22,538 bases of DNA, from the IMG/VR virus record IMGVR_UViG_3300044624_000337, positions 1-22,538 of that record; one strand, given 5' to 3'. Position numbers and translations under genes: made by a program. Positions 2,940 through 20,301 of the stretch are shown here, piece after piece; the stretch's first letter is position 1, and the number at the start of each line of letters is the position of its first letter. This DNA comes from a virus. A model generated the notes under the pieces. That model had not been told where the DNA came from. It ran no database searches and saw only the letters and a program-made list of their open reading frames with translations.

Positions 2940-5900
2940 CTATTTTTTAGAATCAAAACATTTTTGCATACCAGCTGACCAAGTTACTGTGTTTGCTGTT
3001 GGTGCAGTTGGTCCTTGCTTAGGTCTATATACCTTTTGAGCAATTTCTTCCTTTTTACCATCTTTATTGATTGCATACACATATACAACTTTACCAGTTA
3101 CTCTTACATTATCTTTATCGTATGTATATCTTTCTACAAAACTAAGTTCAAAACTATCTTCTAACTCTTTGGTATTAGCAACACCCAAACATTCTTTAAT
3201 TGTTTTTGGTGAAACTGCAATACCTTCCATCGCTAGTTGTGTATTTCTTCTTAATATTTGAGTAAAATCTTTGTCATTCTTAGGTGTATCTATTTTATCC
3301 AAATGTAATAATCCTTTTGCATCATCAAATGCCAACAAATCACCCAGTTTTTTAGGTTTTCCAGTTGAAGATTTTCCTGTTAATTTATTAAGATTCTTAA
3401 ATGTATCCGTTTGTATTCCAAGTGATTTTTTTCTAAGTTCACTCAATGCTAAATCAGTATCCAACCCAGCAGGCAACTTCTTCCCATCTTTTTTATAATT
3501 CGCCTTTTCAGAGTTTGCTGTTCTTTCAATTACTTTTCTATCATCACCACTTAACATTCCAGCTTTACCAACACTACTCATCACTTTGAAATAATTACCA
3601 TTTGATAATTTTGGTTTTTTATCTGCTAATTTATTAAATCTAGCTAAATATTGCTCATCCGATTCATTTGTGTTTCTAGGTAATATACCTTCTCTGATAG
3701 CATTTGTTTTCTTTCCACTTTTAGCCTTACCACTTAAAACATCATCTACACTTTTTTTGAAATTAGAAAAGTGTTTTTTAGTTTCTGGTGTTGTAGCTGC
3801 ATCATCCCCAAGTCTATCAAAATCTTTTGGTTTCATACTTAAAAAATAAGTAGATTGTTGAATTGATATATCTTTCAACCCTGCCTCAATATCTTTAATA
3901 GCTTGCTTATCTTTTAATATCAATAATTTAGCCTTATTAGCTGTTTTTTCATCAATTTGACCAGTTGATACTAAATTACTCAAACGTTCTTCTGATTTAG
4001 TATAATCATCTACTAATGTAGAATTACCTTGAATATCTTTTAATGTTTTTTTATCAGACCATCCATCATATATTACGTTTCCTTTTTCATCTAATGTTAG
4101 TGTAGCAGTATCTGCTGCGTTTTCACCACCGCCACTACTTTTAACCCATCCTAACATTACATCTTTTGGGATTTCATATACTGAATCCGTTTCTGAATCG
4201 TATATGAATGTTTTGTTAGCTTTATTTATTGTTTGCTCACATCTAGCTAAATCTTCTTTTGTACCCCCAAATACCTGCTTAGTTCTTTTTTTACCAAACT
4301 TACCTTCTTGAGTTGCTCTGTCAGCTCCCATAACTGCTCTATCCGCTTTTGATTTTGCACTTCTAGCAACAACAACACAATTTCTGTATATTTCTTTATT
4401 TTCGATATCAGCTGGTATTGCTATTTTATTTTCACTACCAATTGATACATCTTTTTGCTGTAATCCTAATTTTGTATTCTTTGTTCTTTCATATATAATT
4501 CTTCCTAATGTTTCCTCATCTAAATCAGGATGCTTTTCTAATATTTTAACTGCTTCATTTGACATGTTTTCGTTAAAATTAGAACCAGCATTACCCGGAG
4601 CTACCCAAGCAGCACCTTCAACATACCCATTATCTAAAGCTTGTTGAGATGTGGTTGAACCTTGTAATAATGGACCATCGCCCTTACCATACAATTCTTT
4701 TGTTACTTGCTTTTGTTTTGCAATTGATTCGGTACTATCCTTTGGTTCAGCTTTAGCTTTTTTAGTAGGTTTTTCGGATGGTATATCTGCGGTTGGTCTA
4801 AAATCACCAGCTCCTAACTTTTTTGCAGATGGTGTAGTTCCTGTTTGAGATTTTTTTCCTTTATCTTTTAATTTCATCGCTGCTATATAAGCTGGATGTT
4901 TTGTATCATATTTAATAGCTGATGAATATTTTATAGTTGTTGGTTTACCCGGTTTACCATTTTTTCCAATTGGAGTATATTTTACATCAGGATCATCGTT
5001 CTTTGGTTTAACTTCATCAATAAATCCATAAATCATTTCTAACATCAACTCATCTACTAAATGCAAATGTTCTGATTTTACGTTAGGTTCAATTGGAGTT
5101 TCAACATTATCCATTTCACCACTTTCTTTCTTTTCGTTATATGAGTCAACCATATCCTCCATCATTTCAGGAGTGATTTCCATTTCTTCTATTCCCTTTG
5201 CAATCAATTCGGTAAACTTAATCATATTTGCATCATCTTCAGCTTCACCATTAGCATCCGCAAATACAGCAGCCCTACCAGCTCCTAATAAAACAGTTTC
5301 AGCAACAACGTGTGGTACAAGTTCGATAGCAACGAGTTTTGCAAACCCAGCCGCACCTGCAGCTAAACCACCCATACCTGCAGCAAAAATTGCGGTAGTA
5401 GCTATTTTTATACCAACCGATTTTATTGCCTTTACTTCTTCCTCACTTACATCCTGCCCAGCAAAGAATTTACTAACACCTTTAGTAGCATCTTTGAATA
5501 TGTGAACTTCATGCTTAGCACCTTTTTTAATTGCTTTTAGAGCTCCAGCTGCTTTATCTTTTAAAGCCTGTCCTAAACTTCTTCTTGTTTCAGAACCGGG
5601 AGCACCTTCATTTTTTTCAAAGAATGCTTTTTCTTCCTTAGTCCAATTTTCTATTTTTTTCTTTACCTTATCAGTTAATCCATTCTTACCTACTGATGTT
5701 GGTGTTGATGGTGTCTCTTTATTTGCATCTGCTTTTTTAGGTGCGATTCCCATATCTTCTGCAAACTTATTTGCCATTGGGATAGCATCTTTAATATCCT
5801 GGTCTAATACCGTTGTTTTCATTGGTATTTGTTTATCTGGATTTGCAGCGTTATGAGCTACGATTGCTGCCCAACGGTGATGGCCATCTATTACATATCC

Positions 5901-7064
5901 ATCTCTACTCACATATATTGGTGCAGTAATCTTTGGATGATTAGGGTCTTTCTCTAAAGCTCCCATCATACCAACTACCTTTGCTCCAACTAAATCTTTT
6001 TGTGTTGCTTTCAATTTATCAGCAGGTACTTCGGTTTGTAAAGTTTTGATACCTTTTTGTTGTAGCATTTCTCTAAATACAGGTTCAGTATCCACTTCAC
6101 CACTTGCATCAGCTTCCATTCCAGCTGCTCTACTACCCGGCGATGCATTTCCTTTGAATTGTGGCATCTCATCTCTTGGTATTCCTAAGTTATCATCACA
6201 ATATAAGTTTGTACCTGGCACAGTTACATCACATAAGTTAATGTTTGGTGCTGGTTCTCCTTTAGCCTTTGCATCAGCTACTTGTTGTGCTACATTTTGT
6301 ATATCCGTATTGAATTTTTCTAATTGTGCAGGCTCTACTCCATCTGGAATATCAGAACCACCAGCAAATGTTTCCGGGTCAGCTTGTGGCATTTCCTTTG
6401 CAACATCTTTACTATCTATTGGATTAAATTCGTTTGTGTCTGATTTTGGTTCTTGTGCCTTTTCAGTTTCTTTATCAGCTTCCGCATCTTTTGCTAATTG
6501 AGCTTGAACTTCTTTTTCTTTATCCATTCGGGCAGCCATTGCTGGGTCTGCTTTTGGGTCAAACATAGCTTGTGCAGCTTTTGCTTTATCTTCACCACCT
6601 GCGGCTGGGTCTTCCCCACCTTTATCTTTACCTGCATCTGGTTTTTTTGGTTGTCCCTCACCTCCCAAATCCTGATTTATTTTATCTCTTTCAGGACTAC
6701 CATCAGTTGGTAGCATTTTTTCAGCTGCTACTCTACCAGGATGTTCAGCTGGTAATCTTAATAAGTTACCAACAATACCATCGGCATCTTCACCTTTGGC
6801 ATTTTTATATTTTATTGATTTATTAAGAATTGGATTTGCAAATTGCTTACTATCAGCTTCTTCTATATCATCCGGAGTTTTTCCTTTTTCAGTTAATAGG
6901 TTTTCTACCAATGGACCTTTGATGTGAGATAGTCCCATTTCTGAAAGTACAATACCCAACTCCTTTAAGTGGATTGGGTTCTTTGGGTTTGGCATTCCAT
7001 CATCACAACGGTATGCCCATTCAGAAAGTATTTCGTTTATTAATTCAGATAAATTCATATTCAT
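2940..7064 (-). CDS. Giant multidomain phage protein with ParB-like domain, probably virion-associated
   Basis: A 1374-aa mosaic protein. Residues 1-58 form a helical N-terminal module (LINEILSEWAYR, then DGMPNPKNPIHLKELG), of a type I recall at the N-termini of uncharacterised marine phage proteins; I-N-E and L-S-E sites at 9-15 resemble prohead protease targets. Residues 120-260 are a low-complexity Lys/Ala/Asp/Glu linker. Residues about 329-440 look like a ParB/sulfiredoxin-fold domain, with DGYVIDGHHRWAAIVAHN at 388-405. Residues 550-600 are hydrophobic and Gly/Ala-rich and could insert in a membrane. The C-terminal half has the motifs NFNENMSNEAVKILE, FGGTKEDLARC and SSGGGENAADTATLTLD, which look like a conserved unnamed domain. 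Its ATG shares a base with the stop of the nuclease gene (TAATG), implying translational coupling. Candidate roles are an ejected internal protein or a large structural protein; neither is proven. Confidence 0.75.
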   Translation of the reverse strand: MNMNLSELINEILSEWAYRCDDGMPNPKNPIHLKELGIVLSEMGLSHIKGPLVENLLTEKGKTPDDIEEADSKQFANPILNKSIKYKNAKGEDADGIVGNLLRLPAEHPGRVAAEKMLPTDGSPERDKINQDLGGEGQPKKPDAGKDKGGEDPAAGGEDKAKAAQAMFDPKADPAMAARMDKEKEVQAQLAKDAEADKETEKAQEPKSDTNEFNPIDSKDVAKEMPQADPETFAGGSDIPDGVEPAQLEKFNTDIQNVAQQVADAKAKGEPAPNINLCDVTVPGTNLYCDDNLGIPRDEMPQFKGNASPGSRAAGMEADASGEVDTEPVFREMLQQKGIKTLQTEVPADKLKATQKDLVGAKVVGMMGALEKDPNHPKITAPIYVSRDGYVIDGHHRWAAIVAHNAANPDKQIPMKTTVLDQDIKDAIPMANKFAEDMGIAPKKADANKETPSTPTSVGKNGLTDKVKKKIENWTKEEKAFFEKNEGAPGSETRRSLGQALKDKAAGALKAIKKGAKHEVHIFKDATKGVSKFFAGQDVSEEEVKAIKSVGIKIATTAIFAAGMGGLAAGAAGFAKLVAIELVPHVVAETVLLGAGRAAVFADANGEAEDDANMIKFTELIAKGIEEMEITPEMMEDMVDSYNEKKESGEMDNVETPIEPNVKSEHLHLVDELMLEMIYGFIDEVKPKNDDPDVKYTPIGKNGKPGKPTTIKYSSAIKYDTKHPAYIAAMKLKDKGKKSQTGTTPSAKKLGAGDFRPTADIPSEKPTKKAKAEPKDSTESIAKQKQVTKELYGKGDGPLLQGSTTSQQALDNGYVEGAAWVAPGNAGSNFNENMSNEAVKILEKHPDLDEETLGRIIYERTKNTKLGLQQKDVSIGSENKIAIPADIENKEIYRNCVVVARSAKSKADRAVMGADRATQEGKFGKKRTKQVFGGTKEDLARCEQTINKANKTFIYDSETDSVYEIPKDVMLGWVKSSGGGENAADTATLTLDEKGNVIYDGWSDKKTLKDIQGNSTLVDDYTKSEERLSNLVSTGQIDEKTANKAKLLILKDKQAIKDIEAGLKDISIQQSTYFLSMKPKDFDRLGDDAATTPETKKHFSNFKKSVDDVLSGKAKSGKKTNAIREGILPRNTNESDEQYLARFNKLADKKPKLSNGNYFKVMSSVGKAGMLSGDDRKVIERTANSEKANYKKDGKKLPAGLDTDLALSELRKKSLGIQTDTFKNLNKLTGKSSTGKPKKLGDLLAFDDAKGLLHLDKIDTPKNDKDFTQILRRNTQLAMEGIAVSPKTIKECLGVANTKELEDSFELSFVERYTYDKDNVRVTGKVVYVYAINKDGKKEEIAQKVYRPKQGPTAPTANTVTWSAGMQKCFDSKK

Positions 7065-7666
7065 TAAAATTTGTGGTCTTCATCTTCACATATCATTTCT
7101 AACTCATCCCAATGAAATTTTGGTTTTTGATTTAGAAATACAAAACATCTCCATTTGTTACTTTTTTCAAAATAGATATGTTTTTGTAAGTATGATGGAA
7201 TTGCTGCTCCAGTTGGTACTCTTTTTACAGGTGTATCAAAGAATGTTTTTATTAGTACAGTTATATTTTCAGTATCATCCCATTTACGGATTTGTTCTTC
7301 TAACAATCTCCACTCACCTCTATTAAGGTATTGGTCTTGCATTATACAATTTAAGTATGAGAATGTTTGTTTTAGGTTTACCATATTATCAGAGAATGTT
7401 GCAGCTGGTGCCCCATGTCCTTTATCGTATATATTTTTAGCATAATCTTCAGCATCTGATGTTTTAACATTTGGTTCTTTGTAGAAATCCATAGCTCCTC
7501 TATTCACATTTGTAGGTCTATTAGTTGAACGATACTTAATCACAAGGGGTTGCTCCAATGATTGGGAGTAAAGAACTTCAAATACTTCGTTTTTAATTCT
7601 AACATCTTGTCCAAACGAAATTAACGAAAGGAGTAGGAAACCGATAAGGATACTGATTTTTTTCAT
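7064..7666 (-). CDS. Exported NucA/Serratia-type DNA/RNA non-specific endonuclease
   Basis: A 200-aa protein with a classic signal peptide: KK at 2-3, hydrophobic core ISILIGFLLLSLI, and end SFGQ at 17-20, typical of flavobacterial secreted proteins. There is no lipobox Cys. The mature part carries the beta-beta-alpha-metal nuclease signature: DKGH (81-84, the family's DRGH with Lys for Arg; H84 would be the general base), N106 in YLNCIMQ, then LNRGEWRLLEEQIR (114-127) with the expected Asn115, Trp119, Glu123 and Arg127. It should cleave DNA and RNA with a divalent metal in the periplasm or outside the cell. At 200 aa it is slightly short for the family. A TATTTATA box lies 25 nt upstream, and the stop overlaps the start of the 1374-aa gene. 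Exclusion of superinfecting phage DNA or scavenging of nucleic acid are inferred roles. Confidence 0.85.
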   Translation of the reverse strand: MKKISILIGFLLLSLISFGQDVRIKNEVFEVLYSQSLEQPLVIKYRSTNRPTNVNRGAMDFYKEPNVKTSDAEDYAKNIYDKGHGAPAATFSDNMVNLKQTFSYLNCIMQDQYLNRGEWRLLEEQIRKWDDTENITVLIKTFFDTPVKRVPTGAAIPSYLQKHIYFEKSNKWRCFVFLNQKPKFHWDELEMICEDEDHKF

Positions 7667-7705: not shown

Positions 7706-8989
7706 TTATAATTTTCCGTAATCTAATCCCCAACTAGCCTTAACAGGAAACCCACTTCCTTCAATTATTTCCTTTAATCCTCTAATAATCCCCTTATCTA
7801 TATCAGTCGGAACATCAAAAAGGAACGAATCGTATGTATAAAGGCAAAAGCGGATTCCACTCCCATCTATATAATCCAATACCCTTCTCATCACATCCAC
7901 ATTCATTTCAGTTTCCACCGCTTGTAGAAGATAGTTAAATACCTTTTGTGCATTGGGTTGTTCTATCCACTCCAATGGAATATGACGGTGTGGTGTTTGT
8001 AGGTATCCATTCCGTTGTGTTTCAATCCATAAGTTATCAATGTAATCAGCCACCTTATCGAAGTATGGTATTTGGCGGAACTCATCATCGATACCACCAT
8101 ACAACAATTGGAATGTTATCCCCTTCGATTCATCTATACTACAACCATATTGGTCAGCTAACCATTGGTGCATATTCCCATCCGGCACATCGAATCCAAT
8201 CAACTTAGCAATCAGACGGGGGTGATATGCGTTATAATCCATTTGAAGGAATATCCCATCCGATACGAAACATTCTCTACTACCATCGGTTTTGTTTAGG
8301 GCGGCATAGTTCACACCACCATGTCTATTGGATGGTCTACCTGTCACCGTAAATGGATTGTATTCCGTAAACACTAAGTTATCGCGTGAAAGCTGTTTGG
8401 AAGCTTGAGGCCATCTATCAATAAATTTTTTCCCATCGACCCGAATCCCATATCGTTCAATATCTGAAAGGGTTGGTAAGAATATATCGTTATACCAATT
8501 ATAAGTTTTATATTTTAGAGGAATACATTTTACGAATTGTGGTTCTATTGCTTCCGCAAGTTTAAGAATGGGAATGGATTGAATGATGTCCTCTTTGTAA
8601 CCCCTATGTAAAAGGGGAGCTACTAAGTGTTGTAGTGGTTGAGAATAATCTATTGTTTTGCCATGCTTTAAGAAATAAGCAGTATCAACATCATTCAATC
8701 CCTCCCTTACATTTGTAAAAGATTGTAGTAGCTTTTTCTTTTGAAATACCCATTTCTCACCGGTAGTATTCAACACACCTTCTATTTCCTCATTAGAGAG
8801 TGATACAGCGTCTGTGTGTTGTTGTGGTATGATGTACTTGTCCGATTGGGTACTAACGAATAGGAACGATATATGAGTGTTTTGCGGATGCTTCTCATTA
8901 TCTACCCACAATGGATACCAAATAGATGCTTCCGTTTCCAGTAATCTCTTTAATTCGTTTAATTCTATAATAGACTCTATAATTCTCAT
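7706..8989 (-). CDS. Minimal family-A DNA polymerase with degenerate exonuclease domain and no evident thumb
   Basis: At 427 aa this is far shorter than the roughly 600-aa Klenow-type core. The polymerase motifs are nevertheless clear: TGRPSN (216-221); RECF (238-241); motif A LQMDYNAYHPRLIAKL with D251; O-helix motif B KGITFQLLYGG with K289, F293 and Y297 in exact K-x3-F-x3-Y spacing; and motif C YTYDSFLFD with D387 (the usual His before Asp is Tyr). The position matching Klenow R754 is Ile. Residues 20-140 look like a remnant 3'-5' exonuclease domain: D30-x-E32 fits Exo I, but the Exo II Asn/Asp are absent. Only about 30 residues separate GIRVD (181-185) from TGRPSN, leaving no room for a standard thumb. 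It seems more GC-rich than its neighbours and lies downstream of a host-type promoter. Family assignment is confident; in vivo role unknown. Confidence 0.85.
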   Translation of the reverse strand: MRIIESIIELNELKRLLETEASIWYPLWVDNEKHPQNTHISFLFVSTQSDKYIIPQQHTDAVSLSNEEIEGVLNTTGEKWVFQKKKLLQSFTNVREGLNDVDTAYFLKHGKTIDYSQPLQHLVAPLLHRGYKEDIIQSIPILKLAEAIEPQFVKCIPLKYKTYNWYNDIFLPTLSDIERYGIRVDGKKFIDRWPQASKQLSRDNLVFTEYNPFTVTGRPSNRHGGVNYAALNKTDGSRECFVSDGIFLQMDYNAYHPRLIAKLIGFDVPDGNMHQWLADQYGCSIDESKGITFQLLYGGIDDEFRQIPYFDKVADYIDNLWIETQRNGYLQTPHRHIPLEWIEQPNAQKVFNYLLQAVETEMNVDVMRRVLDYIDGSGIRFCLYTYDSFLFDVPTDIDKGIIRGLKEIIEGSGFPVKASWGLDYGKL

Positions 8990-9026: not shown

Positions 9027-9425
9027 TTATTTGTCAAAAATATCGGAGATATCAACAACCCATAATTTTGGGTCATGTCCGTAGCGAACTAAACCGGATA
9101 AACGAGTGTTTCCGGCAACTAAATCATAATCAGTATCACTAAATTTTACAACTATTGGATGTTCAACCAATCCATCTTTTATGTATTGTAATACGAATTT
9201 CTTTTTTGTAGGATGTAATCCATTAAAATCTAAATCTACATTTCCCAAAATATCTTTAATTTGGGAATAGTTTACAATGTATCCAGCTTTACCTCTCTTA
9301 ATCCATGCCAATCTACCCATTTCAACAAATTCCGGATAACGCTGTGCTTCTTCCCATTCACTATCAAAGTTTGGATGAGTGTATCTGATTGTACTTTCGT
9401 TTAATAATGTTTTTAATAATATCAT
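9027..9425 (-). CDS. Small ParB-like (ParB/sulfiredoxin fold) protein
   Basis: A 132-aa protein whose C-terminal half holds a ParB/Srx-type core: the strand HPIVVKFSDTDYDLVAGN followed by TRLSGLVRYG (107-116), where G-N-T-R-L-x-G-L matches the ParB box that binds nucleotide in this fold. Such domains occur in partition proteins, in nucleases and in free-standing phage proteins; with no helix-turn-helix domain, partition is unlikely. The N-terminus MILLKTLLNESTI contains L-N-E|S, a possible prohead protease cleavage site. The gene starts 16 nt after the upstream gene and has no Shine-Dalgarno sequence. Its stop codon abuts the tandem octamer in the promoter region of the polymerase. A nuclease or DNA-modifying role is possible but unproven. 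Confidence 0.7.
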   Translation of the reverse strand: MILLKTLLNESTIRYTHPNFDSEWEEAQRYPEFVEMGRLAWIKRGKAGYIVNYSQIKDILGNVDLDFNGLHPTKKKFVLQYIKDGLVEHPIVVKFSDTDYDLVAGNTRLSGLVRYGHDPKLWVVDISDIFDK

Positions 9426-12465: not shown

Positions 12466-15309
12466 TTATTTAGCTTTTGCTTTTGCCTTTTCTGGTTTTA
12501 TTGTTTTACCTTTTGGATTTGCACTTTGCGTTTGTTTCTTTTTATCAGTTTTATCTAATGACTTAGAACCATTTTTACCAGTTTGAGTTGATTTACCAAC
12601 ACCACCCTTACCATTTTCACTAACACCACCACTAAAGCCATACATACTTGATGTACTACCTTTACTTTGTAAAAACTTAAACGTTATAGCTACATCAATT
12701 ACTTTTGGAGCTTTATATCCACTAACATCCGTACCAATTTCCCAAGGAGAATTATCATCGATGGTATATGATAATGATTCTATAAAAGATTCTTTTGTTT
12801 TATATAAATCACCCAATGTTAAACTTACCAATGGTGGTGTCACAGCTCCATTTGCAGGATATCCTTGTGGATATACCATTTTTGCTAATACACCTAACTT
12901 ATCCCAAGCCGCAATGTGTTCTTCTGGATTTTGAGACCATACTCTAAAATTAAATGTTACATTACGTTCTACACTTTGGTATATATAATAACTAAATGGA
13001 GAACCTATAAATCTCTGACTATCCCAACTTGGAGAAAATGTTTCAGTAAGTCCTGTTATAGTACCTCTAAACATAACACTATTTTCAGCGTTAGTCAATG
13101 ATGCAATTACTAATGGAATAAAATCATAAGATTGTATATCCTTTCCAGATGCATCTTTTTTTACACCTGGCTTTTGTTTATTTATATAATCACCATTATT
13201 TGATGAAGTTCCATTTTTAGATTCTTGGTCTTTTTTAGGAAATTTGAATTTATCCGTATCTTCTTTTGTAGGTACTCCACCATTACCAGCTCCCACTTGA
13301 TTTAATTCAGCCGATACTCTTGGATTTGCCGCTGGATTTGTTTGTGTTTTGGTTAATATTTTAGCTAACTCACTATCGTTACCTCTACTTCTTAAATTAC
13401 TATATGCTCTAATTTCTTGTGTTATTGGAATTCCTTTATTTCTGATACCAATAACATTCTTAGGGTCTGGTTTAGAAACACCAGCTCCCGCTTGAGTTGC
13501 TGCTAAAACCGATGATAAATCATTTCTTGTGTTAATATCGGTTGTAGTTTCATCTACCGTATTCGAATATGCAGTTGATGGTATATTTGGGTCATTTTTT
13601 AATATAGGGTCTGATTCAGCTGATATTTGTTGTTTTTTTCCCAACACCTGTTGTCCTTCTTTCCTACCACCTATCAATTCAGATGGACGTGGTTTTTTTA
13701 CAGAAGAAACCGAATCTGGCAGTCCTTTTGGAGAAACGTTATCTTTAACCAAATTAGTAAACAAATTTTTACCACCCTTACCAACAGAACCTAAATTATT
13801 TGTTGATGGGAATTGTGATTTACTATTTTGTGTTATTTGTGGTTTACTAGCAGGATTTGCATTTGAATTTTCAGACGTAGTTCCTACCAATTGTGTTAAT
13901 CTAGTAGATAAATCATTTCTCAAATTTACATCATCAGCTAATTCATCAACAGTATTAGAATATGCAGTTGTTGGTATATTTGGGTCATATTTTAATACAG
14001 GATTATCTTTAGCCTGTTTTATCTTTACACCCACTTCTATCTGACCTTGCTTTCTACTTTTTGCTAATTGGGTAGGGTCTGGTTTAGGAGTTTGGAAAGA
14101 ACCATCTGGCTTAGTACCAGCTCCACTTGGTGTGGATGGTTTTTCAGGAGCTGTTTTTCCTAATTGATTGGAATTTGATTGTATATTTGATGTAGATAAT
14201 CCATTCAATTTATCTAACATACTTGATAAATCATTTCTCAATGCTACATCTTCGGATGCTTCATCAACGGTATCTGAATATCGGATTACAGAATCAGCTG
14301 CAGTAGGTGTACCTCCACTTTTCGTATCACCAACTGATTTCCCAGCTGATATTTCTTGTTGTCCTACTTTTTTGGCTTGTGATAAGTTTTTCTCATTATC
14401 TTTTTTAATATCAGCTACCTTATCACCTAATTTAGCAAATGGATTGTTTGATGCGTTTATACTATTTGTTGAACTTCCAGCGGTAGAACTTATTGGCTTT
14501 TCTACACTTGTTGTATTTGTACCTCTAGCTAATAATATTGATGATAAATCATTTCTACCAACTATATCATTATTTGATTTATCTACTGTAGTTGAATAGA
14601 ATGCCTGACTATCGTATTGAATTTCAGATGATGATTTTTTTGCGTATAATTGTTGTCCTTCCGTTCTACCTCCAAATAATTTTTTACGAACTGCATTTTT
14701 AGCTAATCCAATCCCTCCACCAATAACTCCATTTAATATTTGCTTAGGTGTACCTGTTGCGTTCTTTGCTAAAAACTTACCTACTAATGTACCAGCTGCA
14801 TCTTTCTTTATTTCTGCTAAAGTAACCATTGTATTTGGTTCTTTACCTGATTTGAATTTTTGATTCAATGCTATCTTTGTTGGTATCATTGTTTCGGGAA
14901 ATGCAATACCTAATTTAGATGCTAATTTTAATCCAGCGGTTTTACCTTTATTTATTAAATTACCAACAATCCCTCTATCACCGGCAGTTGTACCAGTACC
15001 ACCTTTCATAGTAGTAACCATATCGGTTGATTGAGTACTTAATCTAAAAACATCAGTACCATATATTATTGGTGCTGATAATTTATTTATAATTCTAAGT
15101 CCTGTTGCTTCTTCTTCAAAAAACGATTCCGATAACCTAGCACCAAATCTTCGTCTTAATACATTTGCTGCCTTAAATGGCAATCCTAACAAACTATTAC
15201 CAGGCGTAATAAGAATGTCTTTACTATCACGAATATCGTATTGCTTAGCTGCAGTCTGTCCGCTTTCTAAAACTTTAGTTTGAAATAATTCTTTTAATGA
15301 CTTTCCCAT
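12466..15309 (-). CDS. Tail-tube initiator/baseplate protein with internal repeats (gp48/gp54 or gpU-like C-terminus)
   Basis: A 947-aa protein. The N-terminal 210 residues are a unique region rich in Gly, Lys and Leu. Residues 213-650 hold four clear copies and one decayed copy of a repeat. Each copy starts with a G-x-x-x-G-Q-Q-like element (213, 315, 419, 547) and ends in Y-S-x-T-V-D-E followed by R-N-D-L-S-S (238, 344, 450, 581), joined by Ser/Thr/Pro/Asn linkers. Residues 724-880 form a folded domain (YDFIPLVIASL, RFIGSPFSYYIYQSVERNVT, PPLVSLTLGDLY, SFIESLSYTIDD, SPWEI, VIDVAITFKFL). I read this as a tube-initiator or baseplate cap domain. The tail is Lys-rich. T4 gp48 and gp54 are only 364 and 320 aa, so the repeat block is extra. 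The start overlaps the tape-measure stop by one base (TAATG). Confidence 0.6.
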   Translation of the reverse strand: MGKSLKELFQTKVLESGQTAAKQYDIRDSKDILITPGNSLLGLPFKAANVLRRRFGARLSESFFEEEATGLRIINKLSAPIIYGTDVFRLSTQSTDMVTTMKGGTGTTAGDRGIVGNLINKGKTAGLKLASKLGIAFPETMIPTKIALNQKFKSGKEPNTMVTLAEIKKDAAGTLVGKFLAKNATGTPKQILNGVIGGGIGLAKNAVRKKLFGGRTEGQQLYAKKSSSEIQYDSQAFYSTTVDKSNNDIVGRNDLSSILLARGTNTTSVEKPISSTAGSSTNSINASNNPFAKLGDKVADIKKDNEKNLSQAKKVGQQEISAGKSVGDTKSGGTPTAADSVIRYSDTVDEASEDVALRNDLSSMLDKLNGLSTSNIQSNSNQLGKTAPEKPSTPSGAGTKPDGSFQTPKPDPTQLAKSRKQGQIEVGVKIKQAKDNPVLKYDPNIPTTAYSNTVDELADDVNLRNDLSTRLTQLVGTTSENSNANPASKPQITQNSKSQFPSTNNLGSVGKGGKNLFTNLVKDNVSPKGLPDSVSSVKKPRPSELIGGRKEGQQVLGKKQQISAESDPILKNDPNIPSTAYSNTVDETTTDINTRNDLSSVLAATQAGAGVSKPDPKNVIGIRNKGIPITQEIRAYSNLRSRGNDSELAKILTKTQTNPAANPRVSAELNQVGAGNGGVPTKEDTDKFKFPKKDQESKNGTSSNNGDYINKQKPGVKKDASGKDIQSYDFIPLVIASLTNAENSVMFRGTITGLTETFSPSWDSQRFIGSPFSYYIYQSVERNVTFNFRVWSQNPEEHIAAWDKLGVLAKMVYPQGYPANGAVTPPLVSLTLGDLYKTKESFIESLSYTIDDNSPWEIGTDVSGYKAPKVIDVAITFKFLQSKGSTSSMYGFSGGVSENGKGGVGKSTQTGKNGSKSLDKTDKKKQTQSANPKGKTIKPEKAKAKAK
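13350..14680 (-). repeat. Diverged in-frame repeats within the 947-aa tail gene
   Basis: The plus strand shows GATAAATCATTTCT at about 13517, 13906, 14226 and 14544, and a longer near-match around 13571 and 13963 (GTATATTTGGGTCAT). These encode the R-N-D-L-S-S and D-P-N-I-P repeat parts. Copies about 318-393 nt apart imply past duplication of a roughly 106-131-residue unit. Confidence 0.8.
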
Positions 15310-18300
15310 TAACTATGTTTATATGAGTTACCTGATAATTTGTCTACAACTCTTGATACGCTTGAAGTAACTTTAACACCATCCATATGAACTGCTATTT
15401 TACCTGCTTTCAAGTCATCTCTTAATCCTTTTATTTCCGAAATCAATTCATCCATTTTAGCATCTTTTGATTCAGCGTCAGCTCCACCACCAATACCAAG
15501 AATACTAGCTAATCCAACTGTTATTTCTTTAATAGATGCCAATGCTGCAATTCCGGGTAAAGCAATTAATCCAGCAGTACCTAAGAATATCATAGATGCT
15601 CCTAATCCAAATAATGCTGTTGATAAAAGTGCAATAGGTCCTATCATTCCAAGTATACCACCCAATGATGTCATAATCATAGAAATACTTTCTGCTATTG
15701 GTCCAATTACATTACCCAATGCCCCCATACCACTAGCTAATATACCAATACCTGTACCTAATACTATTAATGCACCACCCAATGCAATCAATGCTAATAT
15801 ACCAGCACCAAATACCAATGCACCAACACCACTAAACATTATTGCTCCCAATGCAAATACAGCTCCAGCAAATAATACCAATCCCAATGCAGCTGCTGCA
15901 ACTGATTCCATACTTAATCCTGCTAATAAACTCATAGCATAGGTAAATGGTATCAACGCAATTCCTAATATTGCTATTGCTATCGAACCTTTTATTATAT
16001 CATTTGCTATTTTACTAATTACAAATGCACCTAATGCAAATGCTGCTAAAGCAATACCACCATATATTACAGATGCCCAATCAACTCCAGCAAATTGTTG
16101 AAATGCTAATGCCGATAATCCAATTACACCAGCAAGTAAACCAAATACCAATACTCCTTTTAATGCATTATCTCCAAATGATTTGAATCCTTTACCTAAT
16201 GCAGTTAAAGCAAGACCGGTTGGGATTCCTAAAAATGCAACAGCGGCCATACCAATAGCACCCACTGTCATAACTGCAAATGCAAGACCTGCCAATGATA
16301 GTGATAATGCACCGAATAGAACTTTACCATCGCCCATTTTCTTTAAGCCCTTTGCTAATTCACCTAAACCTTTACCAACTCCACTAACATCCATTTTAGA
16401 TAATACAAATAATGTTGGTAAACCAGGTATCATTCCTAAAAATCCTAAACCTGTTGGTATTAAGTTCAATGCTCCAAATAATACTTTACCATCACCCATT
16501 GCCTTTAATCCCTTAGCAAGGTCTTTTAACTTATCACCAATACCCGCTTTTCCTTTTGACATTTTGTCAGAACCATCAGCTACACTATCAGTTGATGGCA
16601 ATTCAGGTTTTTTATCCGTTCCAAATGATAATTTTTTACCAAACAAACCAGCTACCTTAGTTGCTGCCATTTTAGCAAAGTTACCAAGCATTTGGAATGT
16701 ACCCTTAACCATACCACCTATATTAAAACCCATTTGAGCAAGAGAACCTCCAAACTGAGCGCCGGCTAAAACCATACTACCCATTCCTTTAAGTACACTA
16801 CCCAATGGACCTGATGCAAATGCTGTTAATGATTGAGACCAACTATCAAATGTTGAAAGTTGTATAGAACCATCATCATTAAGTTTATCCTGATTCTTAA
16901 CCATTTTGTCAAGCTCTTCAGCGGATAATCCCAATGCTTTAGCTGCTTGACGTTTTTGGAAGATATCCATTTTATTGTATGCGTCAACTCCACCCATTTG
17001 AGCAAGGGCTTCTTTTACTGATGCTCCAATTTTACCTTCATATGCTAATTGTCTAGCTTTGTTCAAATTTATATTTCTACCAAGCATTGCACCTAATTCC
17101 AATTCATCGGTTATAGATGATTCGAAATCTAATAAGTGGTCGGTTACTTTGGTTAATGAACTCATGCTAACACCCAATCTAGCTGCTGCTACTGCGGCTT
17201 CTGCAATATTCTTTCCACCATCTTTACCATATAACGCAAATGCTTCAGTTGATTTAGCAACATCTTTCATTACAGCTGATGGCATTACTCCTTTTGATTT
17301 TGCTAACTGCTTTGTACTTTCAGCCATATCAGCCGCAATCGATGTGGAGTTATCATTTAATCTTGCAAAGTTTCCAGTTAATGCTGCTGCTTCCTGACCA
17401 CTAATACCCATATTAGTAGCCATTAAATTAGTATTCAATTGAGTTTGGAAAGTTACATCTTTCATACCACCCAATTCAGCATTCAACCCTTCAGCTGTTG
17501 CTTGAGCATCTTTGAACACGAATCCTAATGCGGTTGTTGAGAAAGTAACGCCTCCCATATAACCACCCATAGCTCTTACAGTCTCACCTAATTTTTGTAC
17601 TGCTGCTCCTGCTGCTAATAATGATGTACCAACAAATCCACGCCATCCACTAAACAAAAGTTTAGCAGTTGCCAATGCACCTCTTATACTTTTTTCAATA
17701 CCTTTATAAGCATTAAGTTGTGACTGTACTAATTCTTTTTCTTCTGCACTTATTTGTGAATGTTTTACTGCTATTTCATAATTTGCTTTTTGAGCTTCTA
17801 CCATCTCAAGCATAGCGTTAGCTTGCATATCCGTTAGCAAACCCATTTCTCTATCAAATTGAATTTTGTTTATAATTTGTTGAGTTTGTGCTGCATATTG
17901 GTCTCTTATAGCTGTTTGTGCTTGGACATCTTCTGGTCCACTTTCTGCTAATTTTTGTTGTAAACTTGTCAATCTACCAACATCACCAACCCTAGCATTC
18001 ATAATTTCCGCTTCTTCAGCGGTTGCATTGCCACTTGAAATTATGGTTGATAAAGTATCTTTTGATTTTGTAAGTGATTCTGTTTGAGCTGTTGTTAATT
18101 TTGAATATATTTTGCTTATGGATTCAATTCCGCTAAGCATATCACCAAATGCAACTTTAGTATCTTTAGCTAATTGAAGCCCTTCTCGTTGTGCACTATT
18201 TCTTCGTCTAACAGCTTTTTCAGTTGCATCAATACCCTTGGAGAGTTCTTTCATATCTGCTCTTTCTTGAGCAGTAAGAGCAGTACCTTTTTCCAAGAGT

Positions 18301-18395
18301 TGATTATACTTCTCTCTAGCTGCTCTTAGTTCATCTGGATTACCAATATTAACTGGTGTTCCGACTACTCCTGATTTGCCTCCGCTTGATGCCAT
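15309..18395 (-). CDS. Tail tape measure protein
   Basis: A 1028-aa protein that should span the tail tube lumen, set tail length and be ejected on infection. Residues 20-240 are alpha-helical and coiled-coil-like (DELRAAREKYNQLLEKGTAL, then repeated Gln/Glu/Lys heptads). Residues 250-590 alternate Gly/Ala-rich and amphipathic helices. Residues 626-754 contain three copies of a segment like LAKGLKAMGDGKVLFGAL at about 54-residue spacing (626, 680, 733, the last diverged). Residues 640-960 are strongly hydrophobic, with many Gly/Ala/Leu/Ile membrane-type segments. The C-terminus (HMDGVKVTSSVSRVVDKL) resembles other tape-measure tails. At about 0.15 nm per residue the tail would be near 150 nm. 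It lies after the gp26/gp51-like pair and a small gene, the usual tape-measure position, and ends in a TAATG overlap with the next gene. Confidence 0.9.
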   Translation of the reverse strand: MASSGGKSGVVGTPVNIGNPDELRAAREKYNQLLEKGTALTAQERADMKELSKGIDATEKAVRRRNSAQREGLQLAKDTKVAFGDMLSGIESISKIYSKLTTAQTESLTKSKDTLSTIISSGNATAEEAEIMNARVGDVGRLTSLQQKLAESGPEDVQAQTAIRDQYAAQTQQIINKIQFDREMGLLTDMQANAMLEMVEAQKANYEIAVKHSQISAEEKELVQSQLNAYKGIEKSIRGALATAKLLFSGWRGFVGTSLLAAGAAVQKLGETVRAMGGYMGGVTFSTTALGFVFKDAQATAEGLNAELGGMKDVTFQTQLNTNLMATNMGISGQEAAALTGNFARLNDNSTSIAADMAESTKQLAKSKGVMPSAVMKDVAKSTEAFALYGKDGGKNIAEAAVAAARLGVSMSSLTKVTDHLLDFESSITDELELGAMLGRNINLNKARQLAYEGKIGASVKEALAQMGGVDAYNKMDIFQKRQAAKALGLSAEELDKMVKNQDKLNDDGSIQLSTFDSWSQSLTAFASGPLGSVLKGMGSMVLAGAQFGGSLAQMGFNIGGMVKGTFQMLGNFAKMAATKVAGLFGKKLSFGTDKKPELPSTDSVADGSDKMSKGKAGIGDKLKDLAKGLKAMGDGKVLFGALNLIPTGLGFLGMIPGLPTLFVLSKMDVSGVGKGLGELAKGLKKMGDGKVLFGALSLSLAGLAFAVMTVGAIGMAAVAFLGIPTGLALTALGKGFKSFGDNALKGVLVFGLLAGVIGLSALAFQQFAGVDWASVIYGGIALAAFALGAFVISKIANDIIKGSIAIAILGIALIPFTYAMSLLAGLSMESVAAAALGLVLFAGAVFALGAIMFSGVGALVFGAGILALIALGGALIVLGTGIGILASGMGALGNVIGPIAESISMIMTSLGGILGMIGPIALLSTALFGLGASMIFLGTAGLIALPGIAALASIKEITVGLASILGIGGGADAESKDAKMDELISEIKGLRDDLKAGKIAVHMDGVKVTSSVSRVVDKLSGNSYKHS
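16130..16525 (-). repeat. Three 54-codon repeats within the tape measure gene
   Basis: Segments encoding K-G-L-K-x-M-G-D-G-K-V-L-F-G-A-L lie around 16300 and 16460 with clear DNA similarity (both contain ACTTTACCATC). A diverged third copy lies near 16150. The roughly 160-nt period gives in-frame copies. Confidence 0.75.
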
Positions 18396-18408: not shown

Positions 18409-18630
18409 TTAATAACTTTTATTAAGTTTATTTAGCTTTTTACGCAATTCATTCGTCATATTTTCCAACTCTTTCATATCATCTAATACTTCTTTTGGAA
18501 GTTTTGCTTTTTCAGCTTTTTTTATGATAGTATCAGCTGCGCCTTTACTTAAATTATCAAAGAAATTAGCTACAAATCTATCTGCAGCATCAAATAATCC
18601 TTCTTTGATTGGTTTTTTATTTGTTGACAT
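18409..18630 (-). CDS. Small charged protein before the tape measure gene
   Basis: A 73-aa highly charged, almost wholly helical protein that I do not recognise. The N-terminus MSTNKKPIKEGLFDAAD contains I-K-E|G, a good fit to the T4-type prohead protease rule. The remainder has an amphipathic helix FVANFFDNLSKGAADTIIKK and a Leu-heptad end (LENMTNELRKKLNKLNK) that could form a coiled coil. It starts after an intrinsic terminator and a TATTTATA box, so it probably leads the tape-measure transcription unit; its stop lies 13 nt before the tape-measure ATG. Possible roles are a small internal head protein or a tape-measure chaperone. Its coding status is supported by the exact fit between the regulatory gap and the tape-measure start. 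Confidence 0.65.
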   Translation of the reverse strand: MSTNKKPIKEGLFDAADRFVANFFDNLSKGAADTIIKKAEKAKLPKEVLDDMKELENMTNELRKKLNKLNKSY

Positions 18631-18671: not shown

Positions 18672-18695
18672 AGTGAGGATTAACGCATCCTCACT
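18672..18695 (-). terminator. Intrinsic terminator overlapping the stop of the gp51-like ORF
   Basis: A 9-bp stem (AGTGAGGAT with ATCCTCACT) with a 6-nt loop is followed on the minus strand by TTTTTTATTATC. The TAA stop of the gp51-like ORF lies within the hairpin. It separates the gp26/gp51-like unit from the tape-measure unit. Confidence 0.85.
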
Positions 18696-18910
18696 CTTGG
18701 TGATTTCATTTTAGATTGTATTTTCTTATTCTCCTCAGCTTCTTTTTTCTTAAGGTCTACTAACTTTTGGAAGTAGAATCTTCTAAGATAAAGTGGCATC
18801 GAATAAACTTCATACCAAGTAAACCCATTACTAAATTGAACCATTTCCCAAATTTGGGTATGTAGTTGAATTCTATAATCAGTTGGAAGGGTAAAAAAAG
18901 TTAATCCCAA
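18680..18910 (-). CDS. Short gp51-like / tail assembly chaperone partner ORF overlapping the gp26-like gene
   Basis: The 76-aa frame includes QIWEMVQFSNGFTWYEVYSM then PLYLRRFYFQKLVDLKKKE, which resembles the short ORF often found directly after gp26-like genes and before the tape measure. The only usable start in the overlap is TTG at 18910; an in-frame TAG lies four codons upstream, and the next ATG (18844) would cut into the conserved region. GGAGG occurs 15 nt before the TTG, rather far for initiation. The frame overlaps the gp26-like gene by 32 nt, and both frames share a T7 run, so the product may instead be made by frameshifting as an extension of gp26 (see findings). The stop codon lies inside a terminator hairpin. 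The ORF is real by composition; how it is translated is unresolved. Confidence 0.7.
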   Translation of the reverse strand: MGLTFFTLPTDYRIQLHTQIWEMVQFSNGFTWYEVYSMPLYLRRFYFQKLVDLKKKEAEENKKIQSKMKSPRVRMR

Positions 18911-19703
18911 ACGGGATATCTAGCGCCTCCGATTCGCCTGTAATATCAGATACAAATACATATCTCATATCCATATCTGGTGAAATTTCTTTTATATATG
19001 CTCTAAAAGATTTTGTATCTTTTGCTAAAAATGAATTTTGAATCCATCTATTAACAAATCCTCTATCTGAATTACCATCGACAGATATAATCATATATCT
19101 AAAACGAGTAGTTACATCCGATGCCAAAGATGAATTTTTATTCAATCTTTCTAATGCCTGAACTTCTTTTGTAATTTCAACTTCATCTTTATGTGTTAAT
19201 AATCTGAATTGAATTACTTTTCCATTTGAAGGTAATGTGAATTCGTATAAATTATTAGAATTTAGTTTATCGAAATCCAAATCTTTTGTTTTTATTGCCG
19301 ATAAATCAATTACCACTTGCTGTCTTTCTCCACTAAATGGGTCATTTACTTCTACCTCATAATCAGCTCCATATCCTAAAATACGAGTTGCTAATAAAAT
19401 AGCATTTTTATCACCGATATATACATCATCAATATTCAATCCCGGTTCAACAACAACTGATTCAAATAATCTATCCAAAACAATACCTTTTTTAATAAGA
19501 TTTTGTGATGCTAGGATATCTTCCTCTTTAGCTGTCATATATTTTAGTTGAATAGTACCCTTTCTTAATGGGTGTCCTTCTGGATAAACTAATCCTTGTG
19601 AAGGTAATTCAATTGTTTCCGTTGGAAAATCGAATTGTCTTGGTGGTGGTACATTAGATACTTTTGGAGTTTCTATGTGTTCCGTATTTGCAATTTCTGC
19701 CAT
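18879..19703 (-). CDS. gp26: Baseplate hub/assembly protein, T4 gp26-like
   Basis: A 274-aa protein of the T4-type baseplate family (T4 gp26; Pfam T4_baseplate). After a disordered Pro-rich start it shows IELPSQGLVYPEGHPLRKG, then IQLKYMTAKEEDILASQNLI (about 52-72), the most conserved part of the family, followed by LATRILGYGADYEVEV, DPFSGERQQVVIDLSAI, and the family ending IPFGINFFYPSN. T4 gp26 (208 aa) assists central hub assembly; relatives in other myophages sit just before the tape measure gene and may act as tail assembly chaperones. A TATTTATA box lies 26 nt upstream, following the terminator of the tail tube gene. The last codons overlap the gp51-like ORF at a T7 run. Family assignment is fairly confident. 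Confidence 0.8.
   Translation of the reverse strand: MAEIANTEHIETPKVSNVPPPRQFDFPTETIELPSQGLVYPEGHPLRKGTIQLKYMTAKEEDILASQNLIKKGIVLDRLFESVVVEPGLNIDDVYIGDKNAILLATRILGYGADYEVEVNDPFSGERQQVVIDLSAIKTKDLDFDKLNSNNLYEFTLPSNGKVIQFRLLTHKDEVEITKEVQALERLNKNSSLASDVTTRFRYMIISVDGNSDRGFVNRWIQNSFLAKDTKSFRAYIKEISPDMDMRYVFVSDITGESEALDIPFGINFFYPSN
18893..18899 (-). other. T7 run shared by both frames of the gp26/gp51-like overlap: candidate frameshift site
   Basis: The gp26 frame reads AAC TTT TTT TAC; the downstream ORF reads ACT TTT TTT ACC. A +1 or -2 slip by Phe-tRNA on the T run would join the two ORFs. It lies within the short zone between an upstream TAG in the second frame and the gp26 TGA. Sequence is seen; function is inferred. 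Confidence 0.4.
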
Positions 19704-19812: not shown

Positions 19813-20301
19813 TTAGAATTCAAGAATTGCGTAATCGTAAGCCAATGTCAATTCGATTGTTGCTGGTTCGTTAGAATCAAATGCAACATCACCAAAATTT
19901 GCTTGTGAGATGAATGCACCTTTTAATTTCCACTGCTCAATCTTATCACCAACAGGACCTAACATATAGAAATCGATATCTTTCTTATAGAAATCAGCGT
20001 AGCCATCTCTACCAGTAATAGATTCATGTGATAAACGAACCCATTCCATCACCGATTGTGCACCAGATGGTACAATTGGGTCAAACAATGTAATTGTTAT
20101 ATCTTGCCATTCACCTTTACCTTTCAACTTTCTTTTTACGTTGATGTGGTCTAAAGTTATTACTTCAAATTGAATTGAAGGTCTTGCTGCCGCTTTAACT
20201 AAGTAAGATTGAATACCGTCAATTTCCATTACATAGCGGTTCTTCATCTTAGGTTCGAAGTTCGTATAGAACATCTTGTCAAACTCTAATATTTCTGCCA
20301 T
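19813..20301 (-). CDS. gp19: Tail tube protein (T4 gp19-like)
   Basis: A 162-aa protein of the T4 gp19 tail tube family (T4 gp19 is 163 aa). Visible family features are MFYTNFEPKMKNRYVMEIDG near the N-terminus, the beta-strand block SIQFEVITLDHINVKRKLKG and WQDITITLFDPI, VMEWVRLSHE, and the C-terminal AFISQANFGDVAFDSNEP then IELTLAYDYAILEF. Hexamers stack to build the inner tube through which DNA passes. It follows the sheath gene by 51 nt, a gap with a variant TATTTATA box and no Shine-Dalgarno, and is followed by a strong intrinsic terminator. Tube after sheath is the normal late gene order, and high expression from its own promoter would suit the large copy number needed. Confidence 0.95.
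   Translation of the reverse strand: MAEILEFDKMFYTNFEPKMKNRYVMEIDGIQSYLVKAAARPSIQFEVITLDHINVKRKLKGKGEWQDITITLFDPIVPSGAQSVMEWVRLSHESITGRDGYADFYKKDIDFYMLGPVGDKIEQWKLKGAFISQANFGDVAFDSNEPATIELTLAYDYAILEF

Follow-up and report, generated by a model that had tools for sequence, protein, structure and literature searches.

A probable programmed +1 frameshift joins gp26-like and short gp51-like reading frames in a branch of T4-related viruses

A gp26-like gene and the short open reading frame overlapping its end in a viral sequence from IMG/VR (IMGVR_UViG_3300044624_000337) very probably encode a tail assembly chaperone in two forms, the longer of which would arise when a minority of ribosomes slip by +1 with tRNA-Phe on TTT-Y. 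The window, that is, the whole stretch of DNA analysed, covers positions 1 to 22,538 of that record, and all features described here lie on its minus strand. The genes there are ordered as tail sheath, tail tube (19813-20301; Pfam PF06841 gp19, 36.3 bits), the gp26-like ORF (18879-19703), the short ORF2 (18680-18910), a 73-aa ORF with weak sub-threshold Pfam and PHROG matches only (18409-18630) and a tape measure gene candidate of 1028 aa (15309-18395), which matched the immuto tail tape measure protein by blastp (E 9e-36). The gp26/ORF2 pair thus sits between the tail tube gene and the tape measure candidate, the placement of the G/GT type.

The gp26-like ORF ends with TGA (18881-18879) and shares 32 nt (18879-18910) with ORF2, a +1-frame ORF of 76 codons that starts with TTG and, from the slip on, is read over about 18680-18898. 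In the gp26 frame, the overlap contains ATT AAC TTT TTT TAC CCT TCC AAC TGA, with a run of exactly seven T residues (18899-18893) preceded by the codon AAC (18900-18902), while a GGAGG (18926-18930) lies 15 nt from the TTG. A +1 slip on the run would give ...GINFF-TLPTDYR..., and a -2 slip would add one F. All these elements, the overlap, the T7, the TTG start, the distant GGAGG and the joining of the frames by a +1 or -2 slip, had been named in the original prediction from this DNA and were found in the sequence. The T count was the same in independent assemblies and isolate genomes. The window has 19 runs of A or T of at least seven, so that T7 by itself says little.

We propose that most ribosomes would stop at the gp26 stop codon and release a short form of 274 aa (TAC-N type). 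In a minority, as the end of gp26 is reached, the peptidyl-tRNA-Phe on a TTT that precedes T (or C) would slip by +1, re-pair with the overlapping TTY and carry reading into ORF2, yielding a 340-aa form (TAC-NC type; 18680-19703) with a gp51-like C-terminal domain. For the window, the tryptic peptide across the junction of this product would be ...GINFFTLPTDYR. We infer that the slip is ribosomal and inefficient, and that both forms would act on the tape measure and the tube as lambda gpG and gpGT do.

Relatives were gathered from close and distant phage records, IMG/VR contigs and genome-bin contigs (several named Bacteroidota); the set leans to nearer kin because each large contig scan contributed its best 80 matches. 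When proteins of RM378, SP-15, XacN1 and GXN1 served as seeds for contig scans, the outcome was the seed's own copies alone, no match or a single contig. In a frame census, profiles of both ORFs were searched against the window and 264 loci in each of the three forward frames; many of the loci are one contig retrieved twice, and neither T4 (L085) nor the copy of the window itself (L091) was included. The gp26 profile matched all 265 sequences. ORF2 overlapped gp26 in the +1 frame in 249 of them and in the -1 frame in 6, was never in frame 0, and gave no match in 10. Five of these ten end at a contig edge (L033, L137, L168, L179 and L202), two are copies of RM378 (L086 and L170), in which T7 and an open +1 frame were seen by eye, and in three (L264, L266 and L090) visual inspection shows the -1 frame to be open. 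Removal of 4 junctions with too little sequence from the 249 and addition of RM378 by hand gave 246 junctions, 186 of them distinct, from which sets of 149 (<90% nucleotide identity) and 100 (<80%) were drawn; since the loci are related, counts over these sets are not independent.

Comparing the sequences shows the slip site, the frame of ORF2 and a switch in coding. In all 149 +1 junctions, codon 1 or 2 is a zero-frame TTT with T or C as the next base. The junction opens with T7 in 119 cases, with TTTCTTT in 22 and with TTTCTAT in 4, and TTCTTTC, TTCTTTT, TTTTTTC and TTTTTTA each begin one; 27 junctions keep the +1 arrangement unchanged although none of their T runs exceeds three. The two Phe codons at the junction were TTT-TTT in 121 of 123 relatives from which near-copies had been removed, compared with 3 of 16 Phe pairs elsewhere in the same genes (Fisher p = 9e-14, ignoring kinship), where TTT makes up 75% of Phe codons overall. 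Thus, unlike T7 itself, the conservation of the T run exceeds chance. Moreover, no junction has a T directly before the two Phe codons (0/149, with 72 expected from codon use elsewhere), Asn before the pair being always encoded by AAC and Asp always by GAC. Since a preceding T would create the -1 heptamer T_TTT_TTT, this avoidance probably reflects selection against slipping in the wrong direction; with the frame at +1 and the preceding T absent, the +1 set does not have the -1 arrangement X_XXY_YYZ. The T run or another TTT-Y was kept in the relatives, its loss was not seen, and the comparison strongly supports the programmed frameshift that the original prediction had placed at the run.

Over the 100 diverse junctions, no +1-frame stop was found in the 16 codons from the slip on, while upstream of it stops reach up to 0.32 per codon; gp26 stays conserved for 3 codons past the first Phe, its end falling mostly at codons 6-8. 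In ORF2, the differences in 419 close, non-independent pairs are split 1124/611/2773 over the codon positions, indicating that ORF2 evolves as a protein. Taken together, these data give a high probability that the site is a programmed +1 frameshift.

Three other explanations for the joined frames were weighed. The original prediction had named a +1 or -2 slip, and a -2 slip as in phage Mu, which would add one Phe, allows perfect re-pairing of tRNA-Phe on T7 and is possible at 121 of the 149 junctions. At the other 28, namely the TTTCTTT/TTTCTAT group, one TTCTTTT and one TTCTTTC, tRNA-Phe cannot re-pair at -2, whereas it can re-pair at +1 in all 149; for this reason +1 is favoured, and we consider -2 very unlikely. 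Slippage of RNA polymerase on the T run, with one U lost from the transcript or two gained, would lead to the same product frame and could draw on a homopolymer of seven. However, the 27 junctions without a T run above three argue against it, and the exceptions of this kind disfavour both -2 and transcript slippage as a shared mechanism. Although the avoidance of a preceding T could fit slippage of either polymerase or ribosome, the TTT-Y rule fits codon re-pairing only, and we regard transcript slippage as having a smaller chance still of being correct.

Equally improbable, in our estimate, is that ORF2 is a separate gene, translated either from its TTG or by ribosomes that reinitiate once they have terminated on gp26. 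Overlapping genes are often coupled, and Mel-JY01 is annotated with ORF2 as a separate gene starting at TTG. In the stretch that separates the slip from the nearest upstream +1-frame stop, 90 of the 149 junctions have some in-frame start codon (ATG in 26, only GTG or TTG in 64), but 59 have no ATG, GTG or TTG, and 52 also have no CTG, ATT, ATC or ATA. Furthermore, conservation in the +1 frame starts at the slip rather than at any start codon, the position of the first downstream ATG in ORF2 varies widely among relatives, and separated ORFs with a good start for ORF2 were not seen in any close relative. A Shine-Dalgarno start of ORF2 from the GGAGG was also considered and rejected, no in-frame start being properly spaced and stops intervening in many relatives. 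The +1 slip of tRNA-Phe is therefore preferred over these alternatives. Counting against it are the 90 junctions with a possible start codon, the failure to find a consensus RNA structure (below) and a passage in PMC5009743, by which slippage in E. coli is reported to be much weaker on UUU_U than on CUU_U. A frameshift would explain why annotations often miss ORF2 or give only part of it; examples of the latter are immuto gp038 (L002 5836-5946) and SP-15 gene 046 (L087 4809-4928), both C-terminal ORF2 fragments called from a downstream ATG.

The gp26-like ORF belongs to the T4 gp26 family by its match to Pfam PF12322 (T4_baseplate; 31.2 bits, above the cut-off of 24.5), and it matched the baseplate hub PHROG 150 (E 2.4e-12). 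A search of the gp26 profile against PDB sequences returned a single, unrelated match (E 0.075), and ORF2 alone had no match in Pfam or PHROG. The fused protein, built by joining the frames with AACT read as one step, gave an AlphaFold model with a mean pLDDT of 89.4, in which residues 274-332 form a predicted helical ORF2 domain starting just past the slip (pLDDT 69-95 per 10-residue block). In a second-look alignment, the HK97 tail assembly chaperone 2ob9 ranked best of 993 solved chains with a middling Z of 6.0 (next 4.5; rmsd 3.3 over 78 residues), and plain Foldseek gave E 2.2. When the structure was searched against predicted viral proteins, an SP-15 baseplate hub subunit and T4-like hub assembly proteins were near the top. 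Because of the placement before the tape measure gene and these fold and family matches, the two products are best read as a short and a long chaperone, the fused one being predicted to combine gp26 with a short gp51-like domain.

ORF2 has homologues in the short gp51 proteins of KVP40 and cyanophages. Its profile matched D525 (E 4.6e-6), KVP40 (2.3e-5), S-SM2 (0.0059) and P-SSM2 (0.011), and, when read from the slip, the values were 2e-7, 5e-7, 2e-4 and 4e-5, respectively, compared with 0.014 for the best shuffle. The KVP40 record annotates its short gp51 as resembling a stretch of 40 C-terminal residues in T4 gp51, and cyanophage gp51 is described in a passage of PMC3037559 as having about 20% of the usual length. 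Compared directly with T4-type gp51, ORF2 scored within the shuffled range, with a collinear weak profile match at 21% probability, and a direct match was thus rejected as not significant. The label "gp51-like" in the original prediction therefore holds for the short gp51 proteins and not as a direct match to that of T4.

As to the proposed parallel with the T4 family, a large T4-related branch appears to frameshift its chaperone, in the +1 direction. T4 itself offers no parallel, its genes 26 and 51 being separate and divergent, with products sharing 25% identity. The gp26-like ORF lies in the Pfam family of T4 gp26, but T4 has two full-length genes where the window has a short gp51-like ORF2. 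A passage of PMC5009743 names T4 as the exception to chaperone frameshifting in long-tailed phages, and one in PMC10885494, citing Vladimirov 2022, states that in some T4-like phages a short and a fused gene replace frameshifting. The identity between T4 gp26 and gp51 and their divergent genes agree with such a short-plus-fused-copy arrangement. T4 gp26 (L085 7803-8429, minus strand) ends KEFFELL, encoded with TTC TTT and no heptamer, which may be the remnant of a slip site since lost.

The junctions of the cyanophages P-SSM2 and S-SM2, KVP40, Atu_ph07 and XacN1 share with the window the place after gp26, the Phe-Phe and the overlapping open frame, but their second frame is -1 and they carry a classical tandem -1 heptamer, whereas that of the window is +1. 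The heptamer is T_TTT_TTC in P-SSM2, S-SM2, KVP40, D525, Atu_ph07, L260 and LR756511, and T_TTT_TTT in XacN1 and RAS14, all with the second frame at -1; in LR756511 a separate start of ORF2 is possible, since an ATG overlaps the gp26 stop. Junctions of the -1 type were seen at L261-L266, L089, L090 and L260, from cyanophages, KVP40 and phages of Agrobacterium, Xanthomonas and Stenotrophomonas. P-SSM2 has a GGAGGG about 10 nt before its heptamer. The -1 cases are probably already known, because PMC12846349, with Vladimirov 2022 as its source, mentions -1 signals of the poly-T type in T4-like phages.

A tree of 109 gp26 proteins places the rows with T7 and TTTC, except RM378, in a 96-row clade (100/97) together with L015, while the +1 rows from Firmicute phages (SP-15, LIS04 and GXN1) cluster with the -1 rows. 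The frame labels need 7 changes on this tree, compared with a possible minimum of 3, with the deep order unsure because of long branches. A tentative scenario, which we hold to be somewhat doubtful, is that the ancestral T4-related gp26/gp51 frameshifted at Phe-Phe, that the direction flipped more than once, a T ahead of the pair going with -1 and a T or C behind TTT with +1, that T4 escaped by gene duplication, and that the +1 slip in Bacteroidota phages came to be helped by a new type of element upstream, a GAGG at a constant distance of 30 nt in a region under strong synonymous constraint.

The GGAGG of the window is placed accordingly, its GAGG starting 30 nt before the slip. Among the 100 diverse relatives, GAGG starts at -30 in 52 and occurs anywhere between -36 and -17 in 61, compared with 2.8% of 20-nt windows elsewhere. 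Synonymous bias reaches 1.0 to 2.9 per sequence at codons -11 to -7, -3 and -1, and at most 0.69 at 155 control codons. As the +1 frame is often closed there, this upstream constraint is not due to ORF2 coding; dual coding accounts for codon bias from the slip on only. Known Shine-Dalgarno stimulators lie 10-14 nt upstream for -1 frameshifting and 3 nt upstream in prfB. The GAGG is further upstream than these, its spacing does not fit a prfB-like Shine-Dalgarno role, and the fixed 30 nt fits no mechanism known to us. Downstream of the slip, folding energies are a little low (mean z of -0.70 and -0.96, compared with -0.13 and -0.48 in two controls), but RNAalifold found no consensus pairs over the 100 most diverse sequences, and subgroups paired only upstream of or within the slip; we thus do not claim a downstream RNA structure as stimulator. 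A hairpin in the window (ATCCC-GTTT-GGGAT, 18917-18904) was rejected as well: of its pairs, the only one free to vary is conserved in 50 of 100 relatives, and unrelated third-base pairs reach larger z.

The lambda gpG/gpGT and other tail assembly chaperone frameshifts were reportedly described in 2004 by Xu, Hendrix and Duda. That study is cited on chaperone frameshifts in a passage of PMC5009743. Lambda G/GT shifts by -1 on a heptamer, whereas the slip here would be +1 on TTT_Y. An experimental precedent for +1 on UUU_C is influenza PA-X, whose site is given as UCC_UUU_CGU in a passage of PMC3498833. PA-X resembles the present site in the P-site +1 slip of tRNA-Phe on UUU_C, GXN1 (L004) having TTC_TTT_CGT, and differs in its eukaryotic ribosome and unrelated gene. 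The prfB (RF2) site CUU_UGA also involves a P-site +1 slip, and TTT_CTT_TGG in the immuto group contains CTT_T; according to a passage of PMC5009743, UUU_U serves as the +1 site in a small minority of prfB genes. Our literature search found no report of a +1 frameshift at gp26/gp51, although Vladimirov, Gautam and Davidson 2022 may cover part of it, above all the -1 cases. Chaperone frameshifting as such is known, and the +1 branch at gp26/gp51 appears to be a new form of it. This branch supplies a well-defined natural +1 motif, TTT_Y with no T before the codon pair, at a slip site kept in well over a hundred related viruses, and its natural variants separate +1 from -2 and from transcript slippage.

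Several other ORFs were noted in the window. A 427-aa ORF amid the structural genes (7706-8989) had no Pfam match and carries motifs that presumably recall a small family A DNA polymerase. Likewise, we take the motifs DGHHRW in 2940-7064 and AGNTRL in 9027-9425 to be ParB-like, the latter ORF having no Pfam match. The ORF at 7064-7666, which adjoins structural genes and has a signal-peptide-like N-terminus, encodes a DNA/RNA non-specific endonuclease (PF01223, E 1e-19), and that at 839-1675, with peptidoglycan-binding and GH19 domains, is a likely endolysin.
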